From a virus, in the IMG/VR virus record IMGVR_UViG_3300023179_000006, positions 1 through 33,871 of that record: a stretch of DNA of 33,871 bases; one strand, given 5' to 3'. Of this stretch, positions 1-33,871 are shown piece by piece (positions within the stretch are counted from its first letter, which is position 1; each line of letters starts with the position of its first letter). The translations under genes and the position numbers were made by a program. The notes beneath the pieces were generated by a model. The model did no database searches, was not told the DNA's origin, and saw nothing but the letters and a program-made list of their open reading frames with translations.

Positions 1-127
1 AACTCAAAGTTTTCCTCTTCGCCCACCAGGTCAGTACCAATGAAGTAATTTGACCAGTAGCTGAAGTGGATTTTGTTGGTTCCGTTCAAGCCGGGCAGAC
101 CGTACACCTTCGTTCCGGTGATAGGTT
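1..127. repeat. 127-bp terminal direct repeat, left copy
   Basis: Bases 1-127 match 33745-33871 exactly. Both copies lie inside one continuous reading frame (the capsid gene), so this is the overlap expected when a circular or terminally redundant genome is assembled and cut open. It is not a pair of attachment sites. The exact length of 127 is also a common assembler k-mer size, which favours an assembly overlap over a true phage terminal repeat. Confidence 0.95.
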
Positions 128-867: not shown

Positions 868-2442
868 TTATTTTTGGTTTTTAATTTTGCGGATTGATTC
901 AGCGAAAGCCATAATACGCTCATCGCGTCGTGCAGCTTCGCCCGTTAATGCGTTCACTTTCTTAGCAGGTTCAGCAGCGGGAATCGCGCTGAACTGCTCG
1001 ATAACTTCCAGGGTCTTTGCCTGTGCGTTGGTCAGGTTTTCTACAAGTCCGGTCAGACGTGCGATAAGTGCTGATTGCTCGTTGAACTTCGCCTCAAATT
1101 CAGCCTTCACGCTTGCGAAGTCTTCACTCTGTGCCACCGGTGCAGCCTGCTTTTCCTGAATGTCGGTGATAACTCCACCTTCGGTAGTTACCAAGTAACC
1201 ATCTGCGGTTTCGTGCGTTCCATCCGGTGCAGGTGCGTATTGCCCGTCAGGGGTCTGCACTTCCAATACCGCCCCAACTTCCAAAGATTCGCCGGGGAAG
1301 CGAACAACTGTTCCATCTACGAGGGTAGCCTCGCCAAGTTTCACCACTGGTTCTTCCTCCACGGAAAAGCCCAGCAGCTTCTTGATTTCGTTAATTTTGT
1401 TTAATGCGCTCATTTCATCTAATGTTTGTTTTTCTAAATTGTCGTACTTTGTCAGGATAGCGGTGATTGCCGCCATAGTCTGTTCTTCACTTGTCGCGGG
1501 TTTGTCGGTAAAATAACCTTCAATCGAAAACCCTTTGAACTTGCCTTCCTTGATATTCTGCCAAACCGCGTCATCCTCTACATAATAGGACAGAAACCAA
1601 CTGCCCTCCGGTGCGTCTGCCCACATCTGCGGGGGATTGATTCCGCGTTCCTTGTCCACGATGAACGATTCCAACAAATGCATACCGCCCACGGGGTTAG
1701 CGTGTTCAGCGTTCACCGCATTGTACTTGTTCTGCAACGCCCACAACTTCACCGCCTTTTGGATGGTGGCCGCGCTGAACTTGACATAGTAGGTGCTGCC
1801 GTCTTCAGCCTTGCGCAGGATGGGTTTTTCAGCAATCATGGCCGGGCCTGTGATGATGCGCCGTTCCTCGGATTGAATAGCAAAGGATAGTTTTTCGCGC
1901 TCGATGGTATTGATTTTTGCCTCAGCCCAACGTAGCATCTCTTCACCGCCCCAAAGTAGGTAGGAAATAGTGCCGCAAGCTTCAGGGTCATCTGGATTGT
2001 AATACTCAGCCGCCCGGGAAAGGTAAGAGTAGGTGCGCCGGATGGTTGCCTCGCTCAAAGGTTCGCCGGATGCAATCTGCTGCGCCCTGACCTTGCCCAC
2101 CTGTGTCGCGCACTTGTTGTTGAGTTCTTCGTTCAGACGGATGCCTCGTTCTGCATTGGCCTTAGCTGCCTCAGGGTAATCGCTGAAGGAAGCCATCTGC
2201 GTTTTGTCTTCCCAATAGCTGTAACATATAGCAACCGCCTGTTCCTGTTCCTTGCCTTCGCCGATGAGGATGGGCACACACCGCCCGATAAAGTCTTCTT
2301 CGGTTTCGTTGGCTGTAGGCGTAACGAATTTATCCGCGCTGAAGAAATGGAAATCCTCTTCAATAGCGGGTGATTGCACGAGGCTTACTTGTGTCAGGCC
2401 GTCGCCGTCTTCAATTTCAAGATAGTAAATCGGGTCGTTCAT
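868..2442 (-). CDS. XkdF-type prohead serine protease fused to a scaffold-like tail
   Basis: This 524-residue protein appears modular. Residues 1-75 carry a cysteine-containing segment (FIGRCVPILI to AICYSYWE) often seen ahead of phage proteases. Residues about 88-175 are a helical module (NAERGIRLNEE to YLLWGGEEMLRWAE) found in phage head genes. Residues about 195-320 resemble the XkdF-like serine protease family, with a candidate catalytic histidine in NAEHANP and serine in GFSIEGYF. The last 90 residues (about 430-490) are charged and heptad-like, as in internal scaffolds. It should process the prohead and guide capsid assembly, and it lies just before the capsid gene. The upstream A-rich ATG context (AGATAAAATG) is shared with the portal gene. 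The catalytic assignment is by family resemblance. Confidence 0.75.
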   Translation of the reverse strand: MNDPIYYLEIEDGDGLTQVSLVQSPAIEEDFHFFSADKFVTPTANETEEDFIGRCVPILIGEGKEQEQAVAICYSYWEDKTQMASFSDYPEAAKANAERGIRLNEELNNKCATQVGKVRAQQIASGEPLSEATIRRTYSYLSRAAEYYNPDDPEACGTISYLLWGGEEMLRWAEAKINTIEREKLSFAIQSEERRIITGPAMIAEKPILRKAEDGSTYYVKFSAATIQKAVKLWALQNKYNAVNAEHANPVGGMHLLESFIVDKERGINPPQMWADAPEGSWFLSYYVEDDAVWQNIKEGKFKGFSIEGYFTDKPATSEEQTMAAITAILTKYDNLEKQTLDEMSALNKINEIKKLLGFSVEEEPVVKLGEATLVDGTVVRFPGESLEVGAVLEVQTPDGQYAPAPDGTHETADGYLVTTEGGVITDIQEKQAAPVAQSEDFASVKAEFEAKFNEQSALIARLTGLVENLTNAQAKTLEVIEQFSAIPAAEPAKKVNALTGEAARRDERIMAFAESIRKIKNQK

Positions 2443-2463
2443 TTTATCTAATGGTGAAAAATG

Positions 2464-3060
2464 TCATTTGTCTTGCTTTGCCATAACGGAAATGGAAAGG
2501 GCTATCTTCTGCCCCATTGCCCGTCCGAGGTATTCCGAGAACTCATCGAAGGTGGCATCGTTGATGATTTTACTGAAGAACTTGTTGCCTACCGTCCCCT
2601 TCTTGTTGATTTTCCGAGCCACGGCGTAGGCGAAATTATTGCGCCGCTGTGCATCGGTCTTGCCCCATTCGTTGCCGAGGATGATGCCCTTTTGGCGTAC
2701 CCAGCCCATGTCTCCACCAAGCGCACGGAATAAAGGCCCCACGGGTTGCCCGGGTTTTTGTCCTTGGTCAACAGCCGAGTAATAATCATTCGCGTTGATT
2801 GCACCGATAACATTATCCCCCCTCCTGCGCGTCTTTGCTGCATCAATGCTTTGATAAAGGCTGTAACTCGCACGACCTGATGTTGGGTTTCCGGGAAGTT
2901 TAGAATTCGCAAGGCTGTCTTTGAGTCTTGTTGTAGTGTACTTCGCCCACCCGTCCACCAAGTCAGAAAGCAAATCCCCTGTAAGGGTAGGCTGTTCTAC
3001 CTCAGCTTTGCCGAGGCGCGAAAGGTACTGCCGCTGAAGTGCTGTGAGTTTCCCGTTCAT
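2464..3060 (-). CDS. Probable tail-completion or neck protein
   Basis: This 198-residue basic, mixed alpha/beta protein overlaps the tape measure stop by four bases (ATGA at 3057-3060) and precedes the protease gene by 21 bases. Its central part (SGRASYSLYQSIDAAKTRRRGD, AVDQGQKPGQPVG) resembles the HK97 gp10-like and related head-tail joining proteins, in which a loop plugs the tail terminus. No catalytic motif is present. The place between tape measure and protease is unusual for such a protein in lambda-like order but is seen in Bacteroidota phages. It could also be another minor virion protein. The structural role is inferred from context. Confidence 0.5.
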   Translation of the reverse strand: MNGKLTALQRQYLSRLGKAEVEQPTLTGDLLSDLVDGWAKYTTTRLKDSLANSKLPGNPTSGRASYSLYQSIDAAKTRRRGDNVIGAINANDYYSAVDQGQKPGQPVGPLFRALGGDMGWVRQKGIILGNEWGKTDAQRRNNFAYAVARKINKKGTVGNKFFSKIINDATFDEFSEYLGRAMGQKIALSISVMAKQDK

Positions 3061-4967: not shown

Positions 4968-7364
4968 TTATACTGCTTCTGCTTTAAATACCCATTCTTG
5001 CCCGCTCCACTCGATGACGGGCCGGAACTGGTCACCCTCTGAAGGTGTGCCGATGTCCTTGGTTGTCACGCCCGTGAACATGGAAACCCAATCCGTAAGG
5101 ACGGGCCGCAACCCTCCATTGCTGCTCGTTTCGCCGTTCCATCCAAACTGCCTTGCTGGAACATCCAATCCCCCGCGCAAGTCTGGCCACCTGTCGTTAT
5201 TGTCATCCTTTGCATCATAGCCGCCCCCAGCTTTGCCCGTCTGAGGGGTGAACACATTGGCGGTTTTAATTTTTAAGAACTCGCACTCCGTTACCGTTGC
5301 GCTGCCAACTTGGTAGTCTTGAATTTTGTTCAGCCGGAAGTACTGGTTTTCAAAATAGTACAGGTCGCGGAATGAAAACTTCAACCAATCGGCAGGAGTG
5401 ATGTAAACGCGTGCCTTTACTATCTTGCTGTTCCGGTCGGTGATTTCCGTCAAGTACTTGCGCCACTCCCTGTTGAACAGGTTGTTGTTGGGATATGTGA
5501 TGCCATTTGGAAGGTTAACATAGTACGGCATTCCGAAGTTTAAGTCCTTAGTCGGCTGCCACGGGTTGTTCAGGTGCCCTGCGTGCGGATAACCACCTGT
5601 GATGATTTCCGGGTTGATCGGAGTGACGGTTGGAGTAGTTGCCACCGCATCCGCAAGCTTCCACGTCGCATTGGTTATTTTCCCGCTCCAATACAGAATG
5701 CGCAATTCCCCGTTTGCGTTGCCGTCCTTCGGCATGGAAGCAATAGTTAACTTCCCCCCGGCCTGATTGTATGGCGTGCTGGCGAATGTCGTTTCTATCT
5801 TCCGCTCATTCTTGATGAAGTCGTTGTCGATGATGATTCGCGCCTCTCCGTAACTCTTGCCCGTTGCGTTGTTGTATTCTTCGCTGTCAACGTCCTTGCC
5901 CACCGCCATTGAAAAGACATAGGGGTTTCCGTCTAACTCGCCCATAGGGATAATTTCCAATGGCTGCGAATAGTCAATCTTTGCCGTAAGGTCATGAACC
6001 ACAGAATCACGATAGAACGTGTCACGCGGTGCAATGTATAATTCACGGGTGCGCGTGGTGGGTTCGCAGTAAAGATTATCCATCACAAGCAGGTCTGATA
6101 AAAACTTATCCTGCTGCCAATCACCGCTTACGAACATTGAATTGAAGTCAACCAACTGCCCGACACCGTAGGATGATTGCAAGGCATCCACCTGAATAAA
6201 CGACCCGGGTTTCACGGTCAAAGTAAAACCGGATGTGAACACCGTAGGCGCACCGGATGAATTGAAGGCCGTCACGCTGTCAACTACTATTTTAAGTTCA
6301 TCCCCTGCGAAGGTAAACAGGTTGGAAATTGATATGTCTTGGTTTACGTCTGTCGAGGTTGGGCCAAGGCTGAACGGGCCGACGGTGAATTTATTCACAA
6401 TGCGTTTTCCGGCAAACAGGATTAAGTTGATTTGCGCATTGTCTTGGGTTGGCGAAGTAATCCCGGCTAAGTTCAGGTCAAGTGATGTATTGACCTCGTA
6501 AATTACTCCCTGATTCGGGGCTGTGTAGATGCCCGTGGATGTGTTGAAGTTCCCGCCTGTGTCATAGTAACCGCTGCTGCTGTCGTCATTAAAGACAATC
6601 GTTGTATTTCCGGTAGTGATGGATTGATTAGCGTTGCGCCTCGCCTTCGCCGCAAAGGTTGCGATTGTTGCCTCTGAAAGTTGGGGTAGTTTCGGGAAAG
6701 GGATCACCCGCGATTTAAATTCCTCCGTATTGAAGAAGCTATCATCCGAGTAACTGTACCCGGCAGCGGTGAAAATCTTATCAACGATGACCTTGGCAAA
6801 TACGGCAGGCGTGAAATCTTCGCAGCCCCATACGTCGTACGTTTTGTTCTCGCGCCCTCGGTCAATCATGGGGTAAACATACCCACCACTTGCCGCTGTG
6901 TATGCCCATGAGTTTTTAACCGCTGTCTTTGAAAGGGTGTGGTTTAATTCAGACAAATCAAGTTCGCTGAGCTTTTTGTTGCGGATTTTCGCAAACAGGT
7001 CTGCAACCTCGCCATGAACCGAAACTTCGTATTCAATCTGTCCCTTGCGCACAACGCTGATGTTCAGCAGCCGGACGAAGCCGCGCAACTGTTCCACCTC
7101 ATTGACGGTCACAAGGGCAACCGCTTTCTTGTTGGGGTTGAAGTCCGGTGCGAATTGCGTTCCGTTGTTCAGCTGCTCTTGGTTCACGTCGAAGATGTGC
7201 CCGAATAGCTTGTTGTTGGCTGAAGTCCCGGGAATGCGAAACGTCCTGCTCCAGTCGCTTGACCGCTGGGCAGGTTCGCGGATGTCGGCAATTTCGCGCG
7301 TTACTTGCAGAACCTCGTTTTCAGACAGGTCAACCTGCCTGCCTTCAATAAAAAGCCTCATCAT
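4968..7364 (-). CDS. Large distal tail / baseplate-like protein
   Basis: This 798-residue, beta-rich protein begins MMRLFIEGRQVDLSENE and contains an early conserved-looking segment (RSSDWSRTFRIPGTSANNK). Similar large proteins flank the tape measure gene in many Bacteroidota siphophages and are virion parts of the tail tip. The middle (about 270-400) is a string of beta strands with DSSSGYYDTGGN-like turns, fitting a jelly-roll insertion. The last 120 residues end in a small domain rich in Trp and Gly. It overlaps the upstream tail gene by four bases (ATGA at 7361-7364) and abuts the tape measure start. No enzyme motif is visible. Adsorption or baseplate function is inferred from position. 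Confidence 0.6.
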   Translation of the reverse strand: MMRLFIEGRQVDLSENEVLQVTREIADIREPAQRSSDWSRTFRIPGTSANNKLFGHIFDVNQEQLNNGTQFAPDFNPNKKAVALVTVNEVEQLRGFVRLLNISVVRKGQIEYEVSVHGEVADLFAKIRNKKLSELDLSELNHTLSKTAVKNSWAYTAASGGYVYPMIDRGRENKTYDVWGCEDFTPAVFAKVIVDKIFTAAGYSYSDDSFFNTEEFKSRVIPFPKLPQLSEATIATFAAKARRNANQSITTGNTTIVFNDDSSSGYYDTGGNFNTSTGIYTAPNQGVIYEVNTSLDLNLAGITSPTQDNAQINLILFAGKRIVNKFTVGPFSLGPTSTDVNQDISISNLFTFAGDELKIVVDSVTAFNSSGAPTVFTSGFTLTVKPGSFIQVDALQSSYGVGQLVDFNSMFVSGDWQQDKFLSDLLVMDNLYCEPTTRTRELYIAPRDTFYRDSVVHDLTAKIDYSQPLEIIPMGELDGNPYVFSMAVGKDVDSEEYNNATGKSYGEARIIIDNDFIKNERKIETTFASTPYNQAGGKLTIASMPKDGNANGELRILYWSGKITNATWKLADAVATTPTVTPINPEIITGGYPHAGHLNNPWQPTKDLNFGMPYYVNLPNGITYPNNNLFNREWRKYLTEITDRNSKIVKARVYITPADWLKFSFRDLYYFENQYFRLNKIQDYQVGSATVTECEFLKIKTANVFTPQTGKAGGGYDAKDDNNDRWPDLRGGLDVPARQFGWNGETSSNGGLRPVLTDWVSMFTGVTTKDIGTPSEGDQFRPVIEWSGQEWVFKAEAV

Positions 7365-8551
7365 AGTCGCTGCCTCCTGTTCATCAAGGCCCGTTGAATC
7401 GTGACGCTGTATTGAACCAATCCATCTCGGTTGTACTTGCGCTCAAACTCCGTGCTGTTTAAAGTAACTTTTTCAAGTGCACTAAACGCCCCCATGTAAA
7501 CGACAGGGCTAAACAATAGTTGTTCGATGTATTCCGCTTCAGTGTCTGTCAGGAAGTCCGTGTTCAGCGTCCATTGCTCGGTGAGCATCGTGTTGTAATT
7601 GGTGACACCGCCGCGTGCGTTGGAGTAGTTGTAACTGCCCGTGGAATACCTGAACGAATCCTGCTCGAATGTTTTCTTTTCGCCGGTCAGGTTGCGCACC
7701 GTGCGTTTTCGGAAGGTGTATGAATCGAACCCACCCAATGTGTTGAGGAAGTGAAGCGTCACGGGATCATACTTGCTGCACTCCGTCCACAGGTCGAACC
7801 GCATCACCTCGGAAGCCTTGCCGGAATAGCCGGAAGGATACGCCTGCACCGTGTAGTATGCCTCGTTTCCAGAGGTGAAGCCGATGCCGGAAAACGTGCA
7901 GTCAGCAGCGAGCAGCCGCGAAGTGTAGTCAACGTATGTGAATGTCTTTGAAACCGTCTGAAGCAGCGAACCTGCCGAGTTGTAACTCTTGAACTCGAAC
8001 ACCTTGTTTGCCGTGTCCGTGCCGAATAGCGCATGAACCGTGTGTTGCTCATCGGCCTGCACCTTGCGGCTGCGGACAGTGGTGAGGAACTGCGCACCGG
8101 CTGTTCCACCGTAGGCCGTGAGGTAGTCCGCTTGCGCGTAGGTTAGAAAATCCTGAACAGGTAAGCACGCATCCCAACTGAACTTGTCCGCTGAATTTAC
8201 TACTCCCGTTGCTTCAGTAACAACGCCGCTGCCGTACTCGTAGCCGAACTTTGCGCGCCATTGCGTTATGCGAGGCTGCGCGACAATGGAAGACGCTGAA
8301 GGTGCTGCAAAGTCATTGCCAACATAGGACGCGAGGATTTCCGTAACATCGAACACCGCCTCGTTCTGGCTGCTGCCGTATCGAATGGGTGCTTTGAGTT
8401 TCGCCTGAATTGTGCCGTTAATCTCCACTTCGCACAGGTAGCGGAAATTGGATGCGCTGGTTATTGCCGTGTCCGTTTCGCGCACAACGAAGGTAAGCGG
8501 ATTAAATGCGGGTGAGTAGTCTTGCGGCTGCTGCTGAATTGAGTAGGCCAT
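7361..8551 (-). CDS. Beta-rich tail protein, first gene of a late operon
   Basis: This 396-residue protein starts MAYSIQQQPQDYSPAFNPL, a beginning typical of tail proteins paired with the 798-residue type in Bacteroidota phages. It has no signal peptide, membrane segment or catalytic motif and looks all-beta, as expected for a tail tip or receptor-contacting component. It is the first gene after the strong terminator at 8583-8615, and only two bases separate its ATG from the late motif at 8554-8582. Its messenger would therefore be nearly leaderless if that motif is the promoter. The exact role is not known. Confidence 0.6.
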   Translation of the reverse strand: MAYSIQQQPQDYSPAFNPLTFVVRETDTAITSASNFRYLCEVEINGTIQAKLKAPIRYGSSQNEAVFDVTEILASYVGNDFAAPSASSIVAQPRITQWRAKFGYEYGSGVVTEATGVVNSADKFSWDACLPVQDFLTYAQADYLTAYGGTAGAQFLTTVRSRKVQADEQHTVHALFGTDTANKVFEFKSYNSAGSLLQTVSKTFTYVDYTSRLLAADCTFSGIGFTSGNEAYYTVQAYPSGYSGKASEVMRFDLWTECSKYDPVTLHFLNTLGGFDSYTFRKRTVRNLTGEKKTFEQDSFRYSTGSYNYSNARGGVTNYNTMLTEQWTLNTDFLTDTEAEYIEQLLFSPVVYMGAFSALEKVTLNSTEFERKYNRDGLVQYSVTIQRALMNRRQRL

Positions 8552-8553
8552 TT

Positions 8554-8582
8554 CCTATAATGTTTGGAACGGCATTTTGTCG
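8554..8582 (-). promoter_or_regulatory. Shared late motif, copy 1 (CGACAAAA-N9-AAACATTATAGG)
   Basis: Read on the minus strand, CGACAAAA (8582-8575), a 9-base spacer and AAACATTATAGG (8565-8554) lead to the ATG at 8551 after two bases. The same two blocks with the same spacing occur at 29863-29891 before the other late operon. The spacers differ, so the motif itself appears to be under selection. It abuts the upstream terminator, where a new transcription start is needed. A promoter for a phage or modified RNA polymerase is the best guess; an operator or translation signal is also possible. Confidence 0.65.
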
Positions 8583-8615: not shown

Positions 8616-8650
8616 CCCACACTTATGAAAAAACCAAACCAAAGGTTTTG

Positions 8651-8784
8651 TAGTCAGGACAGGATTCGAACCTATAACGCAAGTTATTAGGAGTAGTAAT
8701 ACTCTACATTCAACTGACTGAGCAGTTCCTCTCATTACCTTGCAAACTTGTAGTAGTTGCGTCTACCAATTTCGCCACCTGACT
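8651..8784 (-). tRNA. Aberrant tRNA-Leu-like element, 134 nt, no clean anticodon arm
   Basis: The ends form a tRNA. A perfect 7-bp acceptor stem joins AGTCAGG (8784-8778) to CCTGACT (8658-8652) with discriminator A at 8651. The D arm is leucine-like (TGGCGAAATTGGTAGACGC), and the T arm has the loop TTCGAAT with a 5-bp stem including one G-U. Between the D arm and T arm lie about 80 bases, where a normal tRNA-Leu has about 31, and I could not fold a standard anticodon arm plus variable arm. A possible 5-bp arm with 7-base loop (TATTA-CTACTCC-TAATA) would give anticodon ACT, but it has C at position 37. CCA is not encoded. It may carry a roughly 49-base insertion, be a chimera of two tRNAs, or be a decayed gene. 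Confidence 0.5.
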
Positions 8785-17582: not shown

Positions 17583-17614
17583 CAAATATAGGTTATAAAA
17601 ATCCGTTTTGCAAA
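17583..17614 (-). promoter_or_regulatory. Bacteroidota-type promoter P2 (TTTG-N20-TATATTTG)
   Basis: TTTG (17614-17611), 20 bases, then TATATTTG (17590-17583) is a full match to the Bacteroidota minus-33/minus-7 promoter. The minus-33 box lies in the last codons of the DnaA-like gene. Transcription would begin near 17577, giving a leader of about 140 bases to the DUF6291-type gene. Confidence 0.8.
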
Positions 17615-17970
17615 TTTTTCTCCCGTCCAAAGGTTTCTTCGCCCTGCAACATTCGGCCCTCCAGAATTTTCTCAATTTCCTGTACTCGCTTCCTCACTGT
17701 CTTATCAAGGTCCAGGTAATTGCAGATTTCCCGATAGCCGTGCATTGCTGATGTGTGGTCGCGACCGCCAGCGTAAAGGCCCATCTGCACCCAAGTTACG
17801 TTCGTCGTAATCCTAGCGAAGTAGAAGAAGTAAAAACGGGCCATCTTCCATTCGTCAAACCGTCGAGGGCTAACAATGACATCAGACGGCACATTGCAAA
17901 CTCTGGAAACAGCTTCCCAGATGCAGTCCATCTGCGTGTTATAGTACCTTTGTTGATGCTTTCTGCTCAT
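17593..17970 (-). CDS. Stand-alone DnaA domain IV-like DNA-binding protein
   Basis: This 125-residue protein contains GRDHTSAMHG (69-78), the signature of DnaA domain IV, which binds DnaA boxes. Before it is a helix-turn-helix with VSRVCNVPSDVIVSPRR, similar to the basic loop region of domain IV. The AAA+ ATPase part of DnaA is missing, so it cannot melt an origin. It might mark the phage origin, compete with host DnaA, or act as a regulator. It overlaps the 35-residue membrane peptide upstream by ATGA, and promoter P2 lies over its last codons. Confidence 0.8.
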   Translation of the reverse strand: MSRKHQQRYYNTQMDCIWEAVSRVCNVPSDVIVSPRRFDEWKMARFYFFYFARITTNVTWVQMGLYAGGRDHTSAMHGYREICNYLDLDKTVRKRVQEIEKILEGRMLQGEETFGREKNLQNGFL

Positions 17971-20179: not shown

Positions 20180-20210
20180 CAAATATACTACGCTTTTCCA
20201 CATTAGCAAA
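20180..20210 (-). promoter_or_regulatory. Bacteroidota-type promoter P1 (TTTG-N19-TATATTTG)
   Basis: TTTG (20210-20207), 19 bases and TATATTTG (20187-20180) fit the consensus fully. Transcription would begin near 20173. The A/T tracts at 20222-20243 lie just upstream of the minus-33 box, as an UP-like element would. It heads the whole early block. Confidence 0.82.
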
Positions 20211-20755: not shown

Positions 20756-21538
20756 TCAATCAGTATTGCAAAAACATTCAAACGAGGGGTCGTTATCGAA
20801 TAATCCAGGGCTGATTTCCACAACTTCGCGGATTTGGCGGTAGGTGATACCATATTTAAAGCTGCCTTTTGTCCGCTCATATCCACCCGATACATTTTCC
20901 TCGAATTGTTCCCACCATTCAAATAGGTCGGGTCGTTCTTTTGCGATGGTCGCTAACTTGCCCTTGCCTTTGAGAAAGCATAAATCACAATTGCCGTAAG
21001 GTTCTTTTAAATTTAAGTCAAATTCCTGCCGCGCCCAAAATTCCAACACATCCTTTTTATTAACCCTCCAATGCACGAGCGGGTAAATCGGTGTCATGTA
21101 TTCGGGATGATTTGCCAATTTACTCCAGCGGCGCGGTTCATCGTATCTGATTCCAATATAAGCATCCCATTCTTTTAAACCGATGCTTTGCAAGTAACGC
21201 CGCGCCGTTTGGATTTTCATCTGATCAGTACAATATCGTGTCATCCGATTAGGCAAAAAGTGCTTTTTGTGCGCGATAAGTTCCGCAAAGGGCCGTCCGT
21301 CACGACTGGCGGTGTGGTAATTTACTACTTCAAAATTGTTGCCGTAGCGATATTCGAGCCACACTACATTCAATCCCCATCTTTTGTCGCACTCATTAAT
21401 GAAGTCAAGTGTTGCGGGCATTTCTTTTCCGGTGTTCTGAAACAACACAAGGTATTCGCCTGGCTGTTCTGTGATTAGCCTGTGCGTCATGTAGGCCGAT
21501 GTGCGACCTCCTGAAAATTGAATTACGTTTGCGTGCAT
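20756..21538 (-). CDS. PAPS reductase / PP-loop (adenine nucleotide alpha-hydrolase-like) protein
   Basis: I chose the ATG at 21538 (260 residues, MHANVIQFSGGRTSAYMTH), after an ACACC context. QFSGGRTSA (7-15) is the PP-loop that binds ATP pyrophosphate. CTDQMK and GNCDLC (a CxxC) and the final FECFC suggest a bound metal or Fe-S cluster. Phage and DndC-like members of this family are common, but most have no proven reaction; they may activate sulfur or modify nucleic acids. It lies in the late operon next to a metallophosphoesterase and the spanin, not beside DNA-modification genes, so a role is not evident. The stop is two bases before the spanin ATG. Confidence 0.82.
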   Translation of the reverse strand: MHANVIQFSGGRTSAYMTHRLITEQPGEYLVLFQNTGKEMPATLDFINECDKRWGLNVVWLEYRYGNNFEVVNYHTASRDGRPFAELIAHKKHFLPNRMTRYCTDQMKIQTARRYLQSIGLKEWDAYIGIRYDEPRRWSKLANHPEYMTPIYPLVHWRVNKKDVLEFWARQEFDLNLKEPYGNCDLCFLKGKGKLATIAKERPDLFEWWEQFEENVSGGYERTKGSFKYGITYRQIREVVEISPGLFDNDPSFECFCNTD

Positions 21539-21556
21539 GGTGTTCGGCAAAGATAA

Positions 21557-21784
21557 TTATTCATCATCGCCCTCCTCTATTAAAAACACATCGCCGCGAA
21601 ATTCCGTCAATAGTTTTTCCATCGCGTCAAGCAGATTGTCCGAATGAAACCCCACCGCGATTGCCTGAGCAAAGAACGCCCTTACCACTTCATCAGGAAA
21701 GGCAGGGGCCTTGAGTGAAGTGCTTGAGGCATGGCCACTGTGGGAAATGGTGATTATAGCCGATAGTTCAGAAAATGCGTCCAT
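21557..21784 (-). CDS. Small acidic hypothetical protein
   Basis: This 75-residue protein starts MDAFSELSAIITISHSGHA and ends DVFLIEEGDDE. The central SLKAPAFPDEVVRAFFAQAI could be a helix. It overlaps the metallophosphoesterase end by 17 bases, and the PP-loop gene follows 18 bases later. No family is recognised. The sequence has the composition of a real protein, but coding status rests on frame and spacing only. Confidence 0.5.
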   Translation of the reverse strand: MDAFSELSAIITISHSGHASSTSLKAPAFPDEVVRAFFAQAIAVGFHSDNLLDAMEKLLTEFRGDVFLIEEGDDE

Positions 21785-22778
21785 CTATAATTTCTTTGTT
21801 TTCTACCTGAAATGTTCCGTCCGCTTCTACCGTGACATAGGCAAACCCGTGTTTCCACTTAGTGTACGCAAAGGGCCTGTATTCCGGGGATAGCGAACAC
21901 AGGCAGCCTGTTGACCATACGCCCACCTTGTTCCCGTTCAAATCGCCTTCGCTGTGATGGCTACTCTGGTGGTAATGGCCAACAAGGGTGTTTGCCTTAG
22001 CCTTCAAGAAGTAGCCCCGCGCAGGGTTCACGGGAGAAAATACGCTTTCGCCCATCTCATGCCCGTGTAGAATGTTCAGCTTGCCCGCTTTGATGATTTC
22101 CCGGTTCACTCTTTCAATCCCCAGTCGCTCGAATTGCAGCAGCGATTCAAATTCCAACGCCTTCAGGTTGCCAAATTGCGGCGCGTTCTTCAGAATGTAG
22201 TGGCGCATCCGCTCTTCGTGGTTGCCGAGCTTGTAAATGATTCGCGCTTTCGGAAAAGCCTGTCGCAGCAGTTCTAAGAATTCGACACCCATCGCGATTT
22301 CATCTGTAATGGTCGGCCTGTCTTGTTCCTTCATGAAGCGGCTGATGTCATAGCAATCCAGGATGTCACCGTTCAGCAGAATAACATCAGGCTGTCGCGC
22401 TTCGCCGTATTCGATGGCAGCTGTGAGTGATTGTAAGTCATGAAATGGCAGGTGGATGTCCGACAGAACGAGTATTTCGCAATCATTCAAGACAATCGGT
22501 TGCGCTTTGCTTTCTTCGAAGGTGCGCAGCTTTGCCAGCCCTTCAGCGATGGTAGATTTTTTCTCTATGGTTTGCATTCCAAGATATTGTTTTTTCTCAC
22601 CCTTCGCGCCATTGATGATGCGCATAAAGTCGCGCCCTGCCTCAAGACTGCCAAATTCACGTGGGTAATTACTATGCAACCAACGCCCCGCCGTGCGCTT
22701 CGGCATGGCTTCTAATTCCTCGCGGTGTCGGTTATAGATGTCCATGCGTCGGTGCGCCTGTGGGGTGAATTGTTTCAT
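21768..22778 (-). CDS. Calcineurin-like metallophosphoesterase
   Basis: This 336-residue protein has the complete metallophosphoesterase series: DIHLPFHD (D107, H109), NGDILD (GD 137-138), GNHEER (GNHE 185-188), HGHEMG (238-240) and GHYH (267-270). These bind two metal ions and cleave phosphoesters. The first 95 residues are an added helical domain (MKQFTPQAHRRMDIYNRH, then WLHSNYPREFGS) that may bind DNA. Phage relatives are often annotated SbcD-like, though no SbcC partner is present here. It lies between the endolysin (ATGA overlap) and a small gene in the late operon. The substrate is unknown. Confidence 0.85.
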   Translation of the reverse strand: MKQFTPQAHRRMDIYNRHREELEAMPKRTAGRWLHSNYPREFGSLEAGRDFMRIINGAKGEKKQYLGMQTIEKKSTIAEGLAKLRTFEESKAQPIVLNDCEILVLSDIHLPFHDLQSLTAAIEYGEARQPDVILLNGDILDCYDISRFMKEQDRPTITDEIAMGVEFLELLRQAFPKARIIYKLGNHEERMRHYILKNAPQFGNLKALEFESLLQFERLGIERVNREIIKAGKLNILHGHEMGESVFSPVNPARGYFLKAKANTLVGHYHQSSHHSEGDLNGNKVGVWSTGCLCSLSPEYRPFAYTKWKHGFAYVTVEADGTFQVENKEIIDGRIF

Positions 22779-27283: not shown

Positions 27284-27790
27284 CTACTTTTCAAAGTAGA
27301 AGCCGAGGTTTTGACCGAATTTATTGGGTTTGTCGATTGCATCTGGGTCGGGGTTTTGCCATTTCGGGTATAATTCAGGGAACGTGCAAAGGTATTTGTT
27401 CATGCGCTCAATGAAGTGGTCACGTTTCTGCGCGTAACGCTGTTCAATTTTCACCATTTCTTCCATGCTGATTGAAGTCATATTTTCCCCGTCGCGCTTC
27501 ATGATTGACTTGTTCATGAACTTGTAAGTCAGGGGAAGAACTGCCTCGTAAAGTACTGAATACTTGAGCACGGGTTTGATGTAGTCGTTTAAAAGGGTCG
27601 TGTTATTCGCGCTTAGGCTGTTCGGGAATTGGCTGTAAATCTCATTATATAGGTCGCTGCCTATCGTGTCACGCAAGGTCACTTCCTGCGCCTCCTGCAA
27701 GGACATTTGAATCAGTTTCGGGTCTAAATTGTCCTGTATCGGCGTGTTTTCCTTTATGTAAACGGTGTCAATAAAGTATTTAAAGCTCAT
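27284..27790 (-). CDS. Head-tail connector-like protein (DUF6712-like)
   Basis: This 168-residue helical protein starts MSFKYFIDTVYIKENTPIQ. LIQMSLQEAQEVTLRDTIG and LYNEIYSQ fit the helical head-completion proteins of Bacteroidota phages (gp6/gp15-like adaptor helices, now often DUF6712). It lies directly behind the portal gene (ATGA at 27787-27790), where the adaptor is usually coded. The end, FGQNLGFYFEK, overlaps a small inverted repeat around the stop. The adaptor function is inferred from position and helical pattern. Confidence 0.6.
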   Translation of the reverse strand: MSFKYFIDTVYIKENTPIQDNLDPKLIQMSLQEAQEVTLRDTIGSDLYNEIYSQFPNSLSANNTTLLNDYIKPVLKYSVLYEAVLPLTYKFMNKSIMKRDGENMTSISMEEMVKIEQRYAQKRDHFIERMNKYLCTFPELYPKWQNPDPDAIDKPNKFGQNLGFYFEK

Positions 27791-29547
27791 CGAATTGTCC
27801 TCCTGTATAGTTTACTTTCCCAAATGTGCCTGCATTGCGGAACGTGCGTGTTCGTTCCGGCAATAGTTCGCCAACCGCCGCGCCGCTGCCATACGTTGTA
27901 CCCTAACTCCCTGCTCATTGCGTCTATTTCTTCGCGTGAATACAACTTGTTTTCCTCAACCAAGAATCGGCAGAAGTCCCGTGAGGTATCGAGCAGCAAC
28001 GGCCCTCCAACATCGGGGTTTTTCCCGTACTTGTACAGTACAAATATCTCCGTATCAAGTCCGCCGCTGTCTGCGATGGAACGCGCCCCGCTGTCCGTGA
28101 TTTTGATTTCGTTTGTAGTCCACTCTATCAGCCTGTTAGCCTGCATCACCTTTAGGATATTCGCCGCTTCCGTGGTGGTTAGCCGTGCGCCCTTTGCCAT
28201 TTCTTCCAGGGTGGCTTTCGGGTTGTCACGAATGACCGCAACAAGCCGAAGTTCAGGGTTGGTTAGTTCGGCGAATGTTTCCGGAAGTTCCTCGAATTCC
28301 TCCGCGCTGCGTCCGTACTTGCGAAAAACCACCTTGTCGGCCTCGTCATCCCATCCGAAAGGGTTTTGAGCAGACATGGCCACGGGCTGTTCTGTCTTTA
28401 ATCCGAGGCTTTCGCGCACCTCATCACGGGTCATGATTCCGGATGTGAACAGCTGAACACCGTCTTCGCCTGCAGGTTCGGCAGCAATGGTGTAAAGTTC
28501 GCCTTCCTGCCCTGTTGCGTTGAACATGGTCGTTAGCACTTTGTCCATTTGCGTTCTTTTCGGCGCAACGTATGCACGGTCAAACACTTCATAGGCCTGT
28601 TTCAGTTCATTGCGTCCCCCAAGTTCCCCGGCCACGCGCACGCCGAACAGCATCGGCGATGTAACGCGGTGAGCATAAAAGATGTTATCCCGAACGGTTT
28701 CCGAAAGTTGAAGATATTGCTTATCGAAGTCCCCCGGCATTAAGTCCACGACCTGAAGCGGGTCTTCGCCCTTTTCCATCCAACTGATTAGAACACCGTT
28801 TGCGTTTTCCGTTCCGGTGGTGTTGGCTTTAAATTTTCGGTCGAACTCTGCTTTGATGTCTTCGGTCGGTTCACCTTTGAATATCTGGATGATTTTTCCG
28901 AGCGAAAAACCGTTTGAAATGTTGTTATAATGAAAATCAGAAATCTTGGTATCAATTTCAATATATGTCCGCGCCGGGTACCAATCCGGCAAGGGATAAA
29001 CGCCTTCGCCTGCCCGGTATTGTTTGAACCATAACACCTGAGTGCCTCCGGGTTTTTCTAAGTCAAACGCGGGAAATTCTAACCTGTCTTCGCGCTTGTC
29101 GTTCCAGTCATCGCTGTACCACACCTTCGAAGCATCTTTGTTTACCCTGCATTTATCAAAAGGTAGGTGGTACCAGTACAAAACCCGCGTTCCGGGCGCG
29201 TTCCAGATGGCCTGAAAAGCGAAGCCGCCGAAGTTTTCCAAATCCATCGCCGCCTTATACTTGATGTCCTGCCATGATTCGTAAGGGTTCGCGTAGTCGA
29301 GGGCTTTCTGTGCGCCTACTTTTTCGCCGACCGTGCCTTCCACCTTTACCGCCGTTTCCTTCCCGGCAATGAAGTGCGCCTTTTGTGTTACGATTGCATT
29401 GTGCAGGGAACTGCTGTTGTACAGGTCAAGTATAACCGCCGGGAAGTTATTACGCTGCCCGTATTCGTACCATTCCTGACCGCGTGCCTCTTTGAACTTA
29501 GGCGGGGGCTGAACTGCGAAGTTTATGCGCTGGAATTCTACTTTCAT
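27787..29547 (-). CDS. Portal protein with C-terminal winged-helix extension
   Basis: This 586-residue protein has a portal-like body (about 1-400). It holds FPAVILDLYNSSSLHNAIVT near the start, AMDLENFGGFAFQAIW in the clip/wing region and VTSPMLFGVRVAGELGGRN near 300, typical of Bacteroidota portal proteins. Residues about 425-500 look like a winged-helix domain (RLVAVIRDNPKATLEEMAKGARLTTTEAANILK, key residues only). The last 70 (FCRFLVEENKLYSREEIDAMS to CRHIWESKLYRR) match a short terminal module seen at the end of phage portal or minor head proteins. It forms the dodecameric DNA gate. It overlaps neighbours by ATGA on both sides. Confidence 0.85.
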   Translation of the reverse strand: MKVEFQRINFAVQPPPKFKEARGQEWYEYGQRNNFPAVILDLYNSSSLHNAIVTQKAHFIAGKETAVKVEGTVGEKVGAQKALDYANPYESWQDIKYKAAMDLENFGGFAFQAIWNAPGTRVLYWYHLPFDKCRVNKDASKVWYSDDWNDKREDRLEFPAFDLEKPGGTQVLWFKQYRAGEGVYPLPDWYPARTYIEIDTKISDFHYNNISNGFSLGKIIQIFKGEPTEDIKAEFDRKFKANTTGTENANGVLISWMEKGEDPLQVVDLMPGDFDKQYLQLSETVRDNIFYAHRVTSPMLFGVRVAGELGGRNELKQAYEVFDRAYVAPKRTQMDKVLTTMFNATGQEGELYTIAAEPAGEDGVQLFTSGIMTRDEVRESLGLKTEQPVAMSAQNPFGWDDEADKVVFRKYGRSAEEFEELPETFAELTNPELRLVAVIRDNPKATLEEMAKGARLTTTEAANILKVMQANRLIEWTTNEIKITDSGARSIADSGGLDTEIFVLYKYGKNPDVGGPLLLDTSRDFCRFLVEENKLYSREEIDAMSRELGYNVWQRRGGWRTIAGTNTHVPQCRHIWESKLYRRTIR

Positions 29548-29858
29548 TTTATCTTTAATACGCCCGTTTCCACGGACTGGTTAGCAAGTGTTGGGTCTGT
29601 GTTGCTGCTGCTTGACTGAGCGTAAATCGTGTATTCATACTCGCCTTTCGCCCATGCTCCGCTTTGTGCCGTGCTGATGTTGAATTGATTATAGCGAGTT
29701 GGGAAGCTGCTCAAATCCGTCACCAATAAGTTGTAAGTTATTGACCTGTCCTCACGGTTGTTCAGCGATAGCAGGAAGTAATAAGGCGGGTTTAACGTTA
29801 CCTTTTCAGTTGCCGTAACGTATATGCTGCTTAATTGCGATGTGTCAATGATGAGCAT
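29544..29858 (-). CDS. Small beta-rich structural protein, first gene of a late operon
   Basis: This 104-residue protein starts MLIIDTSQLSSIYVTATEK and is all-beta, with YYFLLSLNNREDRSITYNLL and GEYEYTIYAQSSSS. It has no signal peptide or metal site. It is the first gene of the portal-to-spanin operon, only four bases after the late motif at 29863-29891, and overlaps the portal start by ATGA. A small virion protein, perhaps a head decoration, connector or tail adaptor, is likely. The exact role is unknown. Confidence 0.6.
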   Translation of the reverse strand: MLIIDTSQLSSIYVTATEKVTLNPPYYFLLSLNNREDRSITYNLLVTDLSSFPTRYNQFNISTAQSGAWAKGEYEYTIYAQSSSSNTDPTLANQSVETGVLKIK

Positions 29859-29862
29859 TCTA

Positions 29863-29891
29863 CCTATAATGTTTTAAGTCCGTTTTTGTCG
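29863..29891 (-). promoter_or_regulatory. Shared late motif, copy 2 (CGACAAAA-N9-AAACATTATAGG)
   Basis: On the minus strand CGACAAAA (29891-29884), 9 bases and AAACATTATAGG (29874-29863) precede the ATG at 29858 by four bases. It is identical in both boxes and spacing to 8554-8582. It fills the 45-base gap between the divergent minus and plus blocks. On the plus strand a TAACTTTG at 29892-29899 could be a minus-7 element for the chaperone gene, but it is too close to the ATG and lacks a minus-33 box. Confidence 0.65.
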
Positions 29892-29903
29892 TAACTTTGA
29901 ACC

Positions 29904-30697: not shown

Positions 30698-31320
30698 CAC
30701 AAAGCACCGTAACACACGAAGACTGCATGGAAGTCATGGCGCGATACCCTGACAAGTATTTCGATTTGGCCGTGGTAGACCCGCCGTATGGTATTGAAAC
30801 AAGGGGTAATGCTCAAGATAGATTCAGGGGAAATATGCAACTAAAAAGCGTAAACGATATGAAGCCAAACGAAAGATATTTTAAAGAACTTTTTAGGGTT
30901 AGTAAAAATCAAATAATTTGGGGATATAATTGGCTTAGTGATATGTTGCCAATGTGCAGAGAATTTATTTTTTGGTATAAAGAACAACCTGTGATTACTT
31001 TTGCTGATGGAGAACTTGCGTGGACTTCTTTTCAAAAGACAGCAAAATGTTTTTATTATCCATATTACAAGGCAACCATAAGTAATAAGGGACAAAAAAT
31101 ACACCCCACTCAAAAGCCCGTTGCGCTTTACGACTGGATTTTCAAGAACTACGCAAAGGAAGGTGATAAGATACTCGACACGCACCTCGGCAGTGGGTCA
31201 AGCCGCATAAGCGCGTGGAAGGCGGGGCTGGATTTCACCGCCTGCGAACTTGACGCGGATTATTTCGCCGCACAGGAAAAGCGATTTAAAGAATTTACGG
31301 CGCAAATAAGGATGTTCTAA
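30694..31320 (+). CDS. DNA amino-methyltransferase (N6-adenine or N4-cytosine, DPPY type)
   Basis: This 208-residue protein has DPPYGIE (29-35), the catalytic D/N-P-P-Y motif, ahead of ILDTHLGSGSS near 166-176, the SAM-binding motif I. That order marks the beta class. IHPTQKPVALYDW before it is typical for the class. It would methylate adenine N6 or cytosine N4 and may shield phage DNA. The centre (30841-31080) has about 31 percent G+C by my count, against 52 and 63 percent in flanking lines, so the target-recognition part was probably swapped in. It overlaps the chaperone by ATGA and the terminase by TAATG. Confidence 0.85.
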   Translation: MTQSTVTHEDCMEVMARYPDKYFDLAVVDPPYGIETRGNAQDRFRGNMQLKSVNDMKPNERYFKELFRVSKNQIIWGYNWLSDMLPMCREFIFWYKEQPVITFADGELAWTSFQKTAKCFYYPYYKATISNKGQKIHPTQKPVALYDWIFKNYAKEGDKILDTHLGSGSSRISAWKAGLDFTACELDADYFAAQEKRFKEFTAQIRMF

Positions 31321-32504
31321 TGAAAATCAAGTATAACCGCCCACCCCTTGCACCGTATCAAATCGCTATCCTCGACAGCACGGCCCGTTACACCGTCACC
31401 GCTGCCAGCACCAAGGCCGGGAAGACCGCTTCGCATATTGTCTGGCTGTTTGAAAAGGCCTTGCAGGGCAAAAAGGGGCAGTCTTTCTGGTGGGTTGCGC
31501 CTGTTTACGGGCAGGGAGAAATAGCCTTCCGAAGGTTTAAACAGCAATGTTCCGAAAGGTTGTTCGATGCGAACGAAAGTAAACTCCGATTGACCTTGCC
31601 CACAGGCGCAATGATTGAATTTAAGTCTGCCGAAAAGCCAGACAATCTTTACGGCGACGACGTTTACGCAGCCGTGTTTGATGAGTTTACCCGCGCCCGT
31701 GAGGAGGCATGGTTTGCTTTGCGTTCCACCCTCACCAAAACCCGAGGGCAATGCAAACTTATCGGAAACGTGAAGGGCAAAAAGAACTGGGGCTATCGTT
31801 TAGCAGAACGCGCACGACAGGGTGAGGAGAATTATGAGTTTCACAAAATCACCGCGTGGGACGCGGTGGCAGCAGGTATTCTGGAACGCGAGGAAGTCGA
31901 ACAGGCGGAACGCGACCTTCCCGCGCACGTCTTCAAGGAGTTGTACCTTGCCGAACCTGCCGATGATGATTCAAACCCCTTTGGATTAGATCATATCCGC
32001 GCCTGCATCGAACCTCTGGCAGCCGGCCCGGTAGAGTGGTTCGGCATCGACCTTGCAAAAAGCCGTGACTGGACGGTTATCATTGGACTGAATCAGTCCA
32101 AAAAGGTAGCCTTCTTTGAGCGTTTCCGGTTAGACTGGAAGGCAACACGCGACACCGTGCAGCGGATTGTCGGGCGCACCCCTGCCGTCATTGACAGCAC
32201 CGGAGTAGGCGACCCGATAGTTGAAGACTTGCAGCGGGTCTGCCCTCGGATTCAGGGCTTCAAATACACATCGATTTCTAAGCAGCAAATCATGGAAGAC
32301 TTGGCCGGGGCAATACATGGCCGGGAAATTGTGTTCCCTGACGGGCCGATAGTGGATGAGCTGATGAACTTTGAATGGACACACACGCGCACGGGCATAA
32401 GTTACAACGCGCCTGAAGGGCTGCACGATGACTGCGTTAACGGGTTGGCTTTGGCCCTGCATTGCTCACGGGTAAATAAAAAAGGGCTATTTCTACTCAC
32501 ATGA
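31320..32504 (+). CDS. terL: Terminase large subunit
   Basis: This 394-residue protein has an ATPase domain with Walker A at about 28-37 (AASTKAGKTA) and Walker B ending in DE (VYAAVFDEF, 121-122). The RNase H-like nuclease domain has GIDLAKSRDW (D244), VIDSTGVGD (D292, and D298) and LHDDCVNGLALAL near 370, the three acidic clusters. It pumps and cuts DNA during packaging. The small partner is on the other strand at 11742-12140. It overlaps the methylase by TAATG and is followed by the sigma-like gene with a four-base overlap. Length is at the short end for the family but motifs are complete. Confidence 0.93.
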   Translation: MKIKYNRPPLAPYQIAILDSTARYTVTAASTKAGKTASHIVWLFEKALQGKKGQSFWWVAPVYGQGEIAFRRFKQQCSERLFDANESKLRLTLPTGAMIEFKSAEKPDNLYGDDVYAAVFDEFTRAREEAWFALRSTLTKTRGQCKLIGNVKGKKNWGYRLAERARQGEENYEFHKITAWDAVAAGILEREEVEQAERDLPAHVFKELYLAEPADDDSNPFGLDHIRACIEPLAAGPVEWFGIDLAKSRDWTVIIGLNQSKKVAFFERFRLDWKATRDTVQRIVGRTPAVIDSTGVGDPIVEDLQRVCPRIQGFKYTSISKQQIMEDLAGAIHGREIVFPDGPIVDELMNFEWTHTRTGISYNAPEGLHDDCVNGLALALHCSRVNKKGLFLLT

Positions 32505-32992
32505 AAACACCAACTGAAATACTCGCCTCCGAAGCATGGCCGGAAATGGTTTGCAAGAAATACTCCCCCGCGCATTGGAAGGATTTGCAGCAGGAATTAT
32601 TTCTGATGATAGCCACGGAACTGAGCGAAAAGGCAGGCAGGGCATTGCAGGCAGGGTATTTCGAGTTTTTTTATATCCGGTGCGCTGCGAACCTTGCCGC
32701 GCCCGGTGGCAGGATTGGCAAAATCAACATCGGCACGGATAGTTTGGATGAGTGGGATATTGCGGAGGAAGACGACGAATGGAGGGAAAGGAAGGAAGCA
32801 GACGTTCAGGAAAAGTTAGACGCGATTGCAGCGGTGGAACGGTCTGAGGGGTGGTACGAAAACAAGATGATGGAGTTGTACCTATCCGGCATGAGCCGGC
32901 GAAAGATTCACCGATTGACGGGCATTGCACTGAATGAGGTCAGCAGGGTGATTCGGGAATTTAAAGCAAAGTGCAGGGCCGAGTACCTGTAA
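32501..32992 (+). CDS. Sigma-factor-like regulatory protein
   Basis: This 163-residue acidic protein starts MKTPTEILASEAWPEMVCK. KDLQQELFLMIATELSEKA and EFFYIRCAANLA (about 26-62) resemble sigma-70 region 2 as degenerated in Bacteroidota phages. The end has MELYLSGMSRRKIHRLTGIALNEVSRVIREF (key: SGMSRRKIHRLTG), a region 4-like helix-turn-helix. It might bind host RNA polymerase and direct it to the late motif shared by 8554-8582 and 29863-29891. This link is a guess. It could also be a packaging accessory protein, because related genes often sit by the terminase. It overlaps the terminase stop by four bases. Confidence 0.6.
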   Translation: MKTPTEILASEAWPEMVCKKYSPAHWKDLQQELFLMIATELSEKAGRALQAGYFEFFYIRCAANLAAPGGRIGKINIGTDSLDEWDIAEEDDEWRERKEADVQEKLDAIAAVERSEGWYENKMMELYLSGMSRRKIHRLTGIALNEVSRVIREFKAKCRAEYL

Positions 32993-33644: not shown

Positions 33645-33871
33645 TTACAGGCTGAAGTAAACGATTTGAGTGGGGAAAGCAACCTGAACGCCGTATTTGA
33701 ACTCGGCGTTGAAGATTACGTTTTTCTTCACAGGGTCGCTGATGAACTCAAAGTTTTCCTCTTCGCCCACCAGGTCAGTACCAATGAAGTAATTTGACCA
33801 GTAGCTGAAGTGGATTTTGTTGGTTCCGTTCAAGCCGGGCAGACCGTACACCTTCGTTCCGGTGATAGGTT
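33645..33871 (-). CDS. Major capsid protein, C-terminal part (same gene as 1-866)
   Basis: This is the 3' end of the capsid gene that begins at 866. Bases 33745-33871 duplicate 1-127, and the frame agrees across the junction (866 minus 107 is a multiple of three). The last residues are QVAFPTQIVYFSL, then a stop at 33645. Any methionine inside this segment is internal and should not be taken as a start. The terminator-like hairpin 25 bases downstream may lower read-through into the tail tube gene, so that capsid transcripts are most abundant. Confidence 0.8.
   Translation of the reverse strand, partial: PITGTKVYGLPGLNGTNKIHFSYWSNYFIGTDLVGEEENFEFISDPVKKNVIFNAEFKYGVQVAFPTQIVYFSL
33745..33871. 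repeat. 127-bp terminal direct repeat, right copy
   Basis: Identical to bases 1-127. Removing one copy gives a 33744-bp circle in which the capsid gene is intact. The true physical ends of the packaged DNA cannot be read from this. Confidence 0.95.

Follow-up and report, generated by a model that had tools for sequence, protein, structure and literature searches.

The window analysed here, which is the whole 33,871-nt stretch of viral DNA, contains four sites of 27 bp, each located a few nucleotides before a start codon at the portal, tail, capsid protease and scaffold genes. These sites are most probably late promoters composed of a GACAAA box and a CATTAT(AG) box, which would be read through the host RNA polymerase by an ECF-like sigma factor of the phage and would give rise to leaderless or nearly leaderless mRNAs. 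A leaderless late promoter class, perhaps served by the protein coded at 32501-32992, had been proposed from the letters of this DNA (the sequence-only reading), and the proposal is now supported by conservation of the sites, by their fixed spacing and register, by nucleotide constraint on the internal site, and by the predicted two-domain sigma fold of that protein. In the proposed mechanism, the host sigma factor would read the operon of terL and the sigma gene together with other early promoters. The phage sigma factor, produced from this probably early operon, would then steer the host core RNA polymerase to the four late promoters, where transcription would begin at the ATG or a few nucleotides from it, yielding portal, tail, protease and scaffold mRNAs that are leaderless or nearly so.

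An exact 127-bp repeat at the two ends of the window (1-127 = 33745-33871) indicates that it represents a complete, circularly permuted phage genome of 33,744 bp, in which the tail and capsid gene block starting at 8551 crosses the genome junction. Viral contigs include many relatives whose portal proteins are 72-98% identical, and no isolate of the phage group was found in the phage collection. A terminase search of bacterial and archaeal genomes revealed neither a host nor a provirus. The host is probably a member of the Bacteroidota, a placement drawn from two lines of evidence, namely host-type promoters and distant relatives of the portal protein in Nonlabens and Bacteroides phages.

The sequence-only reading had described CGACAAAA-N9-AAACATTATAGG as opening both late operons in identical form. 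Both copies are exact (8582-8554 and 29891-29863, minus strand), and even with up to three mismatches allowed, they are the only two matches in the window, far beyond the 0.01 expected from shuffled sequences. The distance of 2-4 bases to the ATG was also correct, the gaps after ...TATAGG being 2 nt (ATG 8551) and 4 nt (ATG 29858), as was the misfit to the host box TAnnTTTG, which is absent from the late strand at all four sites and, at the portal site, occurs on the other strand. A terminator had been placed right before the tail copy, in agreement with a 14-bp hairpin at that position (z = -3.9 for the folded stretch) that a simple consensus terminator scan did not list. The view that the motif occurs nowhere else applies to its strict form, but there are two diverged copies, 2472-2446 and 1443-1417, both followed by an ATG after 3 nt, with family profile scores of 24.9 and 19.4 against 11 for the next-best match in this genome. 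Likewise, of the 20 bases regarded as fixed, the two boxes are kept, whereas the AAA before CATTAT is specific to the window. Considering that relatives carry another triplet there at the portal site (CCC, TCC, ATA or GTA), AAA falls outside the signal, whose true core is GACAAA-N13-CATTATAG. The same specificity explains why the strict 20-base pattern had zero matches in the viral contig collection (viral_contigs), while the relaxed form GACAAAA-N12-CATTATAG recovered the family. The two boxes start 19 bp apart. The coordinates of the sites and of the genes discussed below are listed in Table 1; the site of the protease gene overlaps the end of the upstream gene.

Table 1. Candidate promoters and associated features in the window
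Feature	Position	Strand	Description
Candidate late promoter 1, portal operon	29864..29890	-	GACAAAA, N12, CATTATAG; 5 nt before ATG 29858
Candidate late promoter 2, tail operon	8555..8581	-	-35-like GACAAAA, N12, -10-like CATTATAG; 3 nt before ATG 8551
Candidate late promoter 3, capsid protease	2446..2472	-	GACAAAT, N12, CATTAGAT; 3 nt before ATG 2442
Candidate late promoter 4, internal, scaffold	1417..1443	-	GACAATT, N12, CATTAGAT; 3 nt before in-frame ATG 1413
Host-type -7 box	29892..29899	+	TAACTTTG; 4 nt before ATG 29904, operon with terL and sigma gene
Terminator-like hairpin	about 8618-8587	-	14 bp; upstream of the tail site, ending about 6 nt from its -35-like box
First gene of portal operon	29544..29858	-	
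Portal	27787-29547	-	Portal operon
First gene of tail operon	7361..8551	-	
Protease-scaffold fusion ORF	868..2442	-	Matches head maturation protease families
Nested in-frame ORF, predicted scaffold	868..1413	-	181 aa; C-terminal part of the protease-scaffold ORF
terL, terminase large subunit	31320..32504	+	Upstream neighbour of the sigma gene
Predicted phage sigma factor, ECF-like	32501..32992	+	sigma2-linker-sigma4, 163 residues; directly after terL

The same arrangement is found across the phage group. A family profile built from the sites in the family contigs yielded four strong sites each for the window and two relatives (G001 and G002), and a start codon follows every one of them after 3-5 nt. 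Strong sites scored 19-30, compared with 11 (window) and 14 (a relative) for the next match and a maximum of 12.7 in shuffled sequences; because the profile was made from the same sites, these scores are descriptive and do not constitute an independent test. In the partial contig of another relative, G011, three of the four sites are strong; the start codon after its protease site is GTG, with the distance unchanged, and its tail site has kept CATTATAG but lost a clear GACAAA. Independently of the profile, all 16 consensus matches with no more than two mismatches in six family contigs are followed 2-5 nt downstream by ATG or GTG, 15 of them at the expected genes and one antisense. When spacers from 6 to 18 were tried, a spacer of 12 gave 16 matches, 11 and 13 gave none, and any other length gave at most 6.

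At the portal operon, relatives carry GACAAAA-N12-CATTATAG(G/A) or a near variant, the spacer differing from that of the window. When 2.9 million viral contigs were scanned, every core match preceding a portal or tail gene of this group stood 3-4 nt from the start codon, and among 72 stretches of the viral collection the portal and tail matches of the group were all in register, whereas matches in other contigs were not. The search of portal and tail operons of relatives that the sequence-only reading had suggested thus revealed conserved boxes, spacing and start-codon distance, together with a drifting spacer. Two conserved boxes at a fixed spacing, separated by a drifting spacer and lying upstream of genes, are the properties of a bipartite sigma-dependent promoter.

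Several other matches were set aside. A fifth, weak profile match, AACAAAA...CATTGTAA (12978 in the window, 21630 in G001, 25578 in G002 and 133 in G003), is conserved and was excluded as probable coding conservation because no ATG lies in register. A diverged antisense site before MSRSSRLF, opposite the first portal-operon gene, and a plus-strand match with two mismatches at 3471 of G001, opposite the portal operon, were also rejected. In addition, a CAAAG/CAAAA element occurs a few bp before the -35-like box at the portal, protease and scaffold sites; CAAAG is missing from the tail site.

With regard to geometry, the end of CATTAT and the A of the start codon are 5-7 nt apart in the window, and the distance is similar in other lineages. 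To judge from the sequence, this position fits that of a -10 box for transcription starting at the ATG, and the late mRNAs would accordingly lack a leader or nearly so, with their exact 5' ends at or close to the start codon. At the tail operon, a further promoter would find little space, since only about 35 nt separate the end of the terminator-like hairpin from the ATG. Leaderless mRNAs are rare in such hosts: about 3.7% of 5' UTRs in B. thetaiotaomicron are shorter than 10 nt (PMC7366714), and 5.5% are leaderless in F. psychrophilum (PMC9723704). How such hosts would translate leaderless late messages is a question raised by these sites.

A separate observation concerns the region directly upstream of the hairpin, where 8650-8784 (minus strand) form a tRNA-Tyr(gta)-like element whose anticodon loop carries a 43-nt insert. 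Differing tRNA-like elements lie upstream of the tail gene in L158 (2711-2830), L161, L162, L165, L166 and L168; that of L158 is tRNA-Pro-like with a 46-nt insert, and that of L162 has acceptor, D and T arms and apparently no anticodon arm. These elements at the tail locus are possibly hypervariable tRNA decoys.

On the opposite strand, the operon containing terL and the sigma gene is preceded by a box of the host type. TAnnTTTG is the primary promoter box of the Bacteroidota (PMC7366714), and it is kept at this divergent operon, with differing nn, in 18 of 32 compared sequences, distant ones included. In probable promoters of F. johnsoniae, the distance from the box to the start is 4-5 nt (PMC6847099); the 4 nt between TAACTTTG and the ATG suggest that the terL/sigma operon may be leaderless too. 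This operon is probably early. Its promoter and the first late site share a single 45-bp gap on opposite strands, and it may be speculated that late activation could also shut the early promoter. Elsewhere, host-type TTG/TTTG-N19-21-TATATTTG sequences at 20187, 17590 and 10145 (minus strand), in or near the region of replication genes, represent candidate early promoters.

The fourth site lies inside the protease ORF, immediately before the nested scaffold ORF. Among 519 windows of 11 codons along the protease-scaffold ORF, the one containing this site is the most synonymously constrained (0.09 versus 0.62 overall). In 29 distinct sequences, synonymous variation is lowest from about 13 codons before to 2 codons after the Met at 1413, and this in-frame Met is conserved in all 29. 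The amino acids encoded by the spacer of the site vary despite the nucleotide constraint, and selection seems to act here on the DNA as such, over a stretch that runs from the upstream CAAAG by way of GACAAT and CATTA to the ATG at 1413. The window has a diverged form of this site (CATTAGAT), and no matching box precedes the internal scaffold start in L237-type phages. A conserved in-frame internal start within a capsid protease ORF is the arrangement of a lambda-type nested scaffold, the scaffold product being predicted here. Given a promoter at this position, the scaffold could be made in excess of the protease from a messenger of its own.

The putative reader of these sites is encoded directly downstream of terL. 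Homologues of this protein occur across the phage group and in far more distant relatives, and the gene is present in those relatives that carry late sites and span the locus. An AlphaFold 2 (AF2) model based on 54 homologues, down to about 26% identity, reached a mean pLDDT of 85 and comprises two helical domains (residues 4-66 and 92-162) joined by a low-confidence linker (79-89); a first run with mostly close homologues had been poor (pLDDT 64.5). The model thus contains the sigma2 and sigma4 domains only, with a flexible linker, as is typical of ECF factors of about 160-200 aa. In a Foldseek search of the PDB, the best 26 rows consisted entirely of sigma-factor chains or models, with ECF factors at the top. 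Aligned separately with a second aligner, both domains resembled known sigma factors at 1.3-2.9 A, with 1.3-1.8 A over 57-61 residues for domain 4 and 2.8 A over 71 residues for domain 2. The structural Z score of 8.8 is weak when taken alone, since helical folds easily give middling scores. In the viral library, some of the matched proteins bear the annotation sigma-70 region 2 or sigma24 homologue.

At the level of sequence, the protein had no match at the Pfam sigma cut-offs (Sigma70_r2 and Sigma70_r4), no match in the annotated phage collection, and no sigma match in the PDB. A homologue from a distant relative matched PHROG 1740, RNA polymerase sigma factor (E 9e-5), and Sigma70_r2 below threshold (E 0.0095), and another homologue showed a sub-threshold match to Sigma70_r4_2 (E 0.026). 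The sigma family that includes this protein escapes standard profiles. The structural model and these distant homologues lead to its prediction as a divergent ECF-like sigma factor, it co-occurs with the sites, and we infer that it reads the late boxes.

Related arrangements with other boxes were detected in more distant lineages. In G034, G036 and G037, whose sigma proteins are about 42% identical to that of the window, the tail and protease genes start with TTCCGCA...CATTGTAR-gta-ATG, as does the first portal-operon gene in G034. In phages that are more distant still (portal about 40%), CTATTT-type boxes end 6-8 nt before the ATG or GTG of the same genes, and a by-eye reading placed additional boxes, short and conserved in part, about 18 nt upstream of these. 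The sequence of the boxes changes and their register to the start codon stays nearly constant, as expected of promoters fused to start codons. Considering that the lineages may also differ in host, lineage-specific boxes alone are no proof of co-evolution between sigma factors and promoters. With moderate confidence, it can be suggested that these are widespread phages, most likely of Bacteroidota, with a private sigma/promoter code in which the boxes of each lineage fit its own divergent sigma factor. Every block of virion genes, the nested scaffold gene among them, would then be opened by a promoter fused to the start codon and be leaderless, in hosts where such mRNAs are rare, and the early, host-read promoter of the sigma operon would overlap the first late promoter on the opposite strand.

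The evidence that the sites are promoters is independent of the reader, and the same late promoters might be served by host RNA polymerase carrying an alternative host sigma factor, or by the host sigma factor together with a phage activator. Bacteroidota hosts do possess many ECF sigma factors (PMC9723704, PMC7366714). However, the phage group has its own predicted sigma factor, which occurs in relatives with the sites; the boxes differ both from TAnnTTTG and from the CGT -10 box reported for host ECF promoters (PMC9723704); and their variation between phage lineages at the same genes suggests a phage-borne reader, although hosts may differ between these lineages too. A reader supplied by the host is therefore regarded as unlikely.

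Two further explanations dispense with a promoter function. The nearly fixed 3-5 nt to the start codon would also suit a translation-initiation or mRNA-leader element in transcripts that start upstream, to which ribosomes or a regulator are recruited at the start codon, and A-rich sequence before the start is known to aid initiation in Bacteroidota (PMC6847099). Yet the far box, about 24-32 nt from the ATG, is outside the region usually contacted by ribosomes, the fixed 12-nt unconserved spacer is better suited to two DNA contacts than to an RNA structure, and the -10-like box is placed correctly for a start at the ATG; with the hairpin ending just about 35 nt before the tail ATG, this explanation is highly improbable. 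A conserved bipartite site at the start of four gene blocks might alternatively be an operator over the late operons, overlapping other promoters and bound by a phage repressor or another HTH protein, of which the phage does encode HTH-like examples (a DnaA-C-like protein at 17593-17970). Such a role can hardly be credited, since the sites are non-palindromic and constant in orientation and in register to the start codon, carry no TAnnTTTG on the late strand, and, at the tail operon, leave scarcely any room for a second promoter between the hairpin and the ATG. Promoters read by the phage sigma factor are accordingly the preferred reading.

Phage late sigma factors are known from T4 (gp55) and SPO1 (gp28 and gp33/34), and the T4 late promoters consist of a -10 element only, TATAAATA, and require gp33 and gp45. 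The system proposed here would be similar in that a phage protein of the sigma family redirects the host RNA polymerase to a class of late promoters absent from the host. It differs in that the protein is ECF-like, with sigma2 and sigma4 domains and no detected sequence relation to the T4 and SPO1 factors, and in that the promoters are bipartite and lie directly on the start codon. Unlike the gp55-type promoters, the sites have a -35-like box, conserved and at a fixed distance from the -10-like box, whose sequence also differs from the T4 element. In lambda, the nested scaffold start of C/Nu3 is used on the same messenger; in both cases the scaffold corresponds in frame to the C-terminal portion of the capsid protease ORF, whereas the nested start of the present phages is preceded by a promoter-like site under strong nucleotide constraint.

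Leaderless genes with the -10 box adjacent to the ORF are common in the Thermus phylum (PMC12340547), and most middle and late messages of the Thermus phage phiYS40 are described as lacking a leader (PMC3594737, citing Sevostyanova 2007). The likeness to the late messages predicted here is clear, but phiYS40 infects Thermus, whereas leaderless messages are rare in Bacteroidota, and no phage sigma factor is named in the phiYS40 account (PMC3594737). Compared with primary sigma promoters of the Bacteroidota, the divergent terL/sigma operon has TAnnTTTG at about the right spacing for a start at the ATG, whereas the four late sites do not match this box. In the open-licence literature, no report was found that combines a phage sigma factor with leaderless late messages for this phage group, and a search on Flavobacterium phages gave no paper dealing with sigma factors and late promoters.

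Most genes of Bacteroidota phages lack annotation, and little is known of how transcription is programmed in these phages. In this context, one 163-residue protein and four 27-bp sites offer a concrete candidate for an early-to-late switch, as well as a natural system for studying the joint evolution of sigma factors and promoters. Scaffold dosage may furthermore be set by an internal promoter, not by translation alone.

Outside the late region, a phosphoadenosine phosphosulfate reductase-like gene and a metallophosphoesterase gene (20756-21550 and 21768-22778, minus strand) lie between the lysis and replication genes. The small DnaA-C-like protein, encoded on the minus strand close to the DnaB and Erf genes, has a C-terminal HTH domain of DnaA (Pfam E 2.6e-11), and in distant relatives such as L079 a similarly placed gene immediately precedes the sigma gene.
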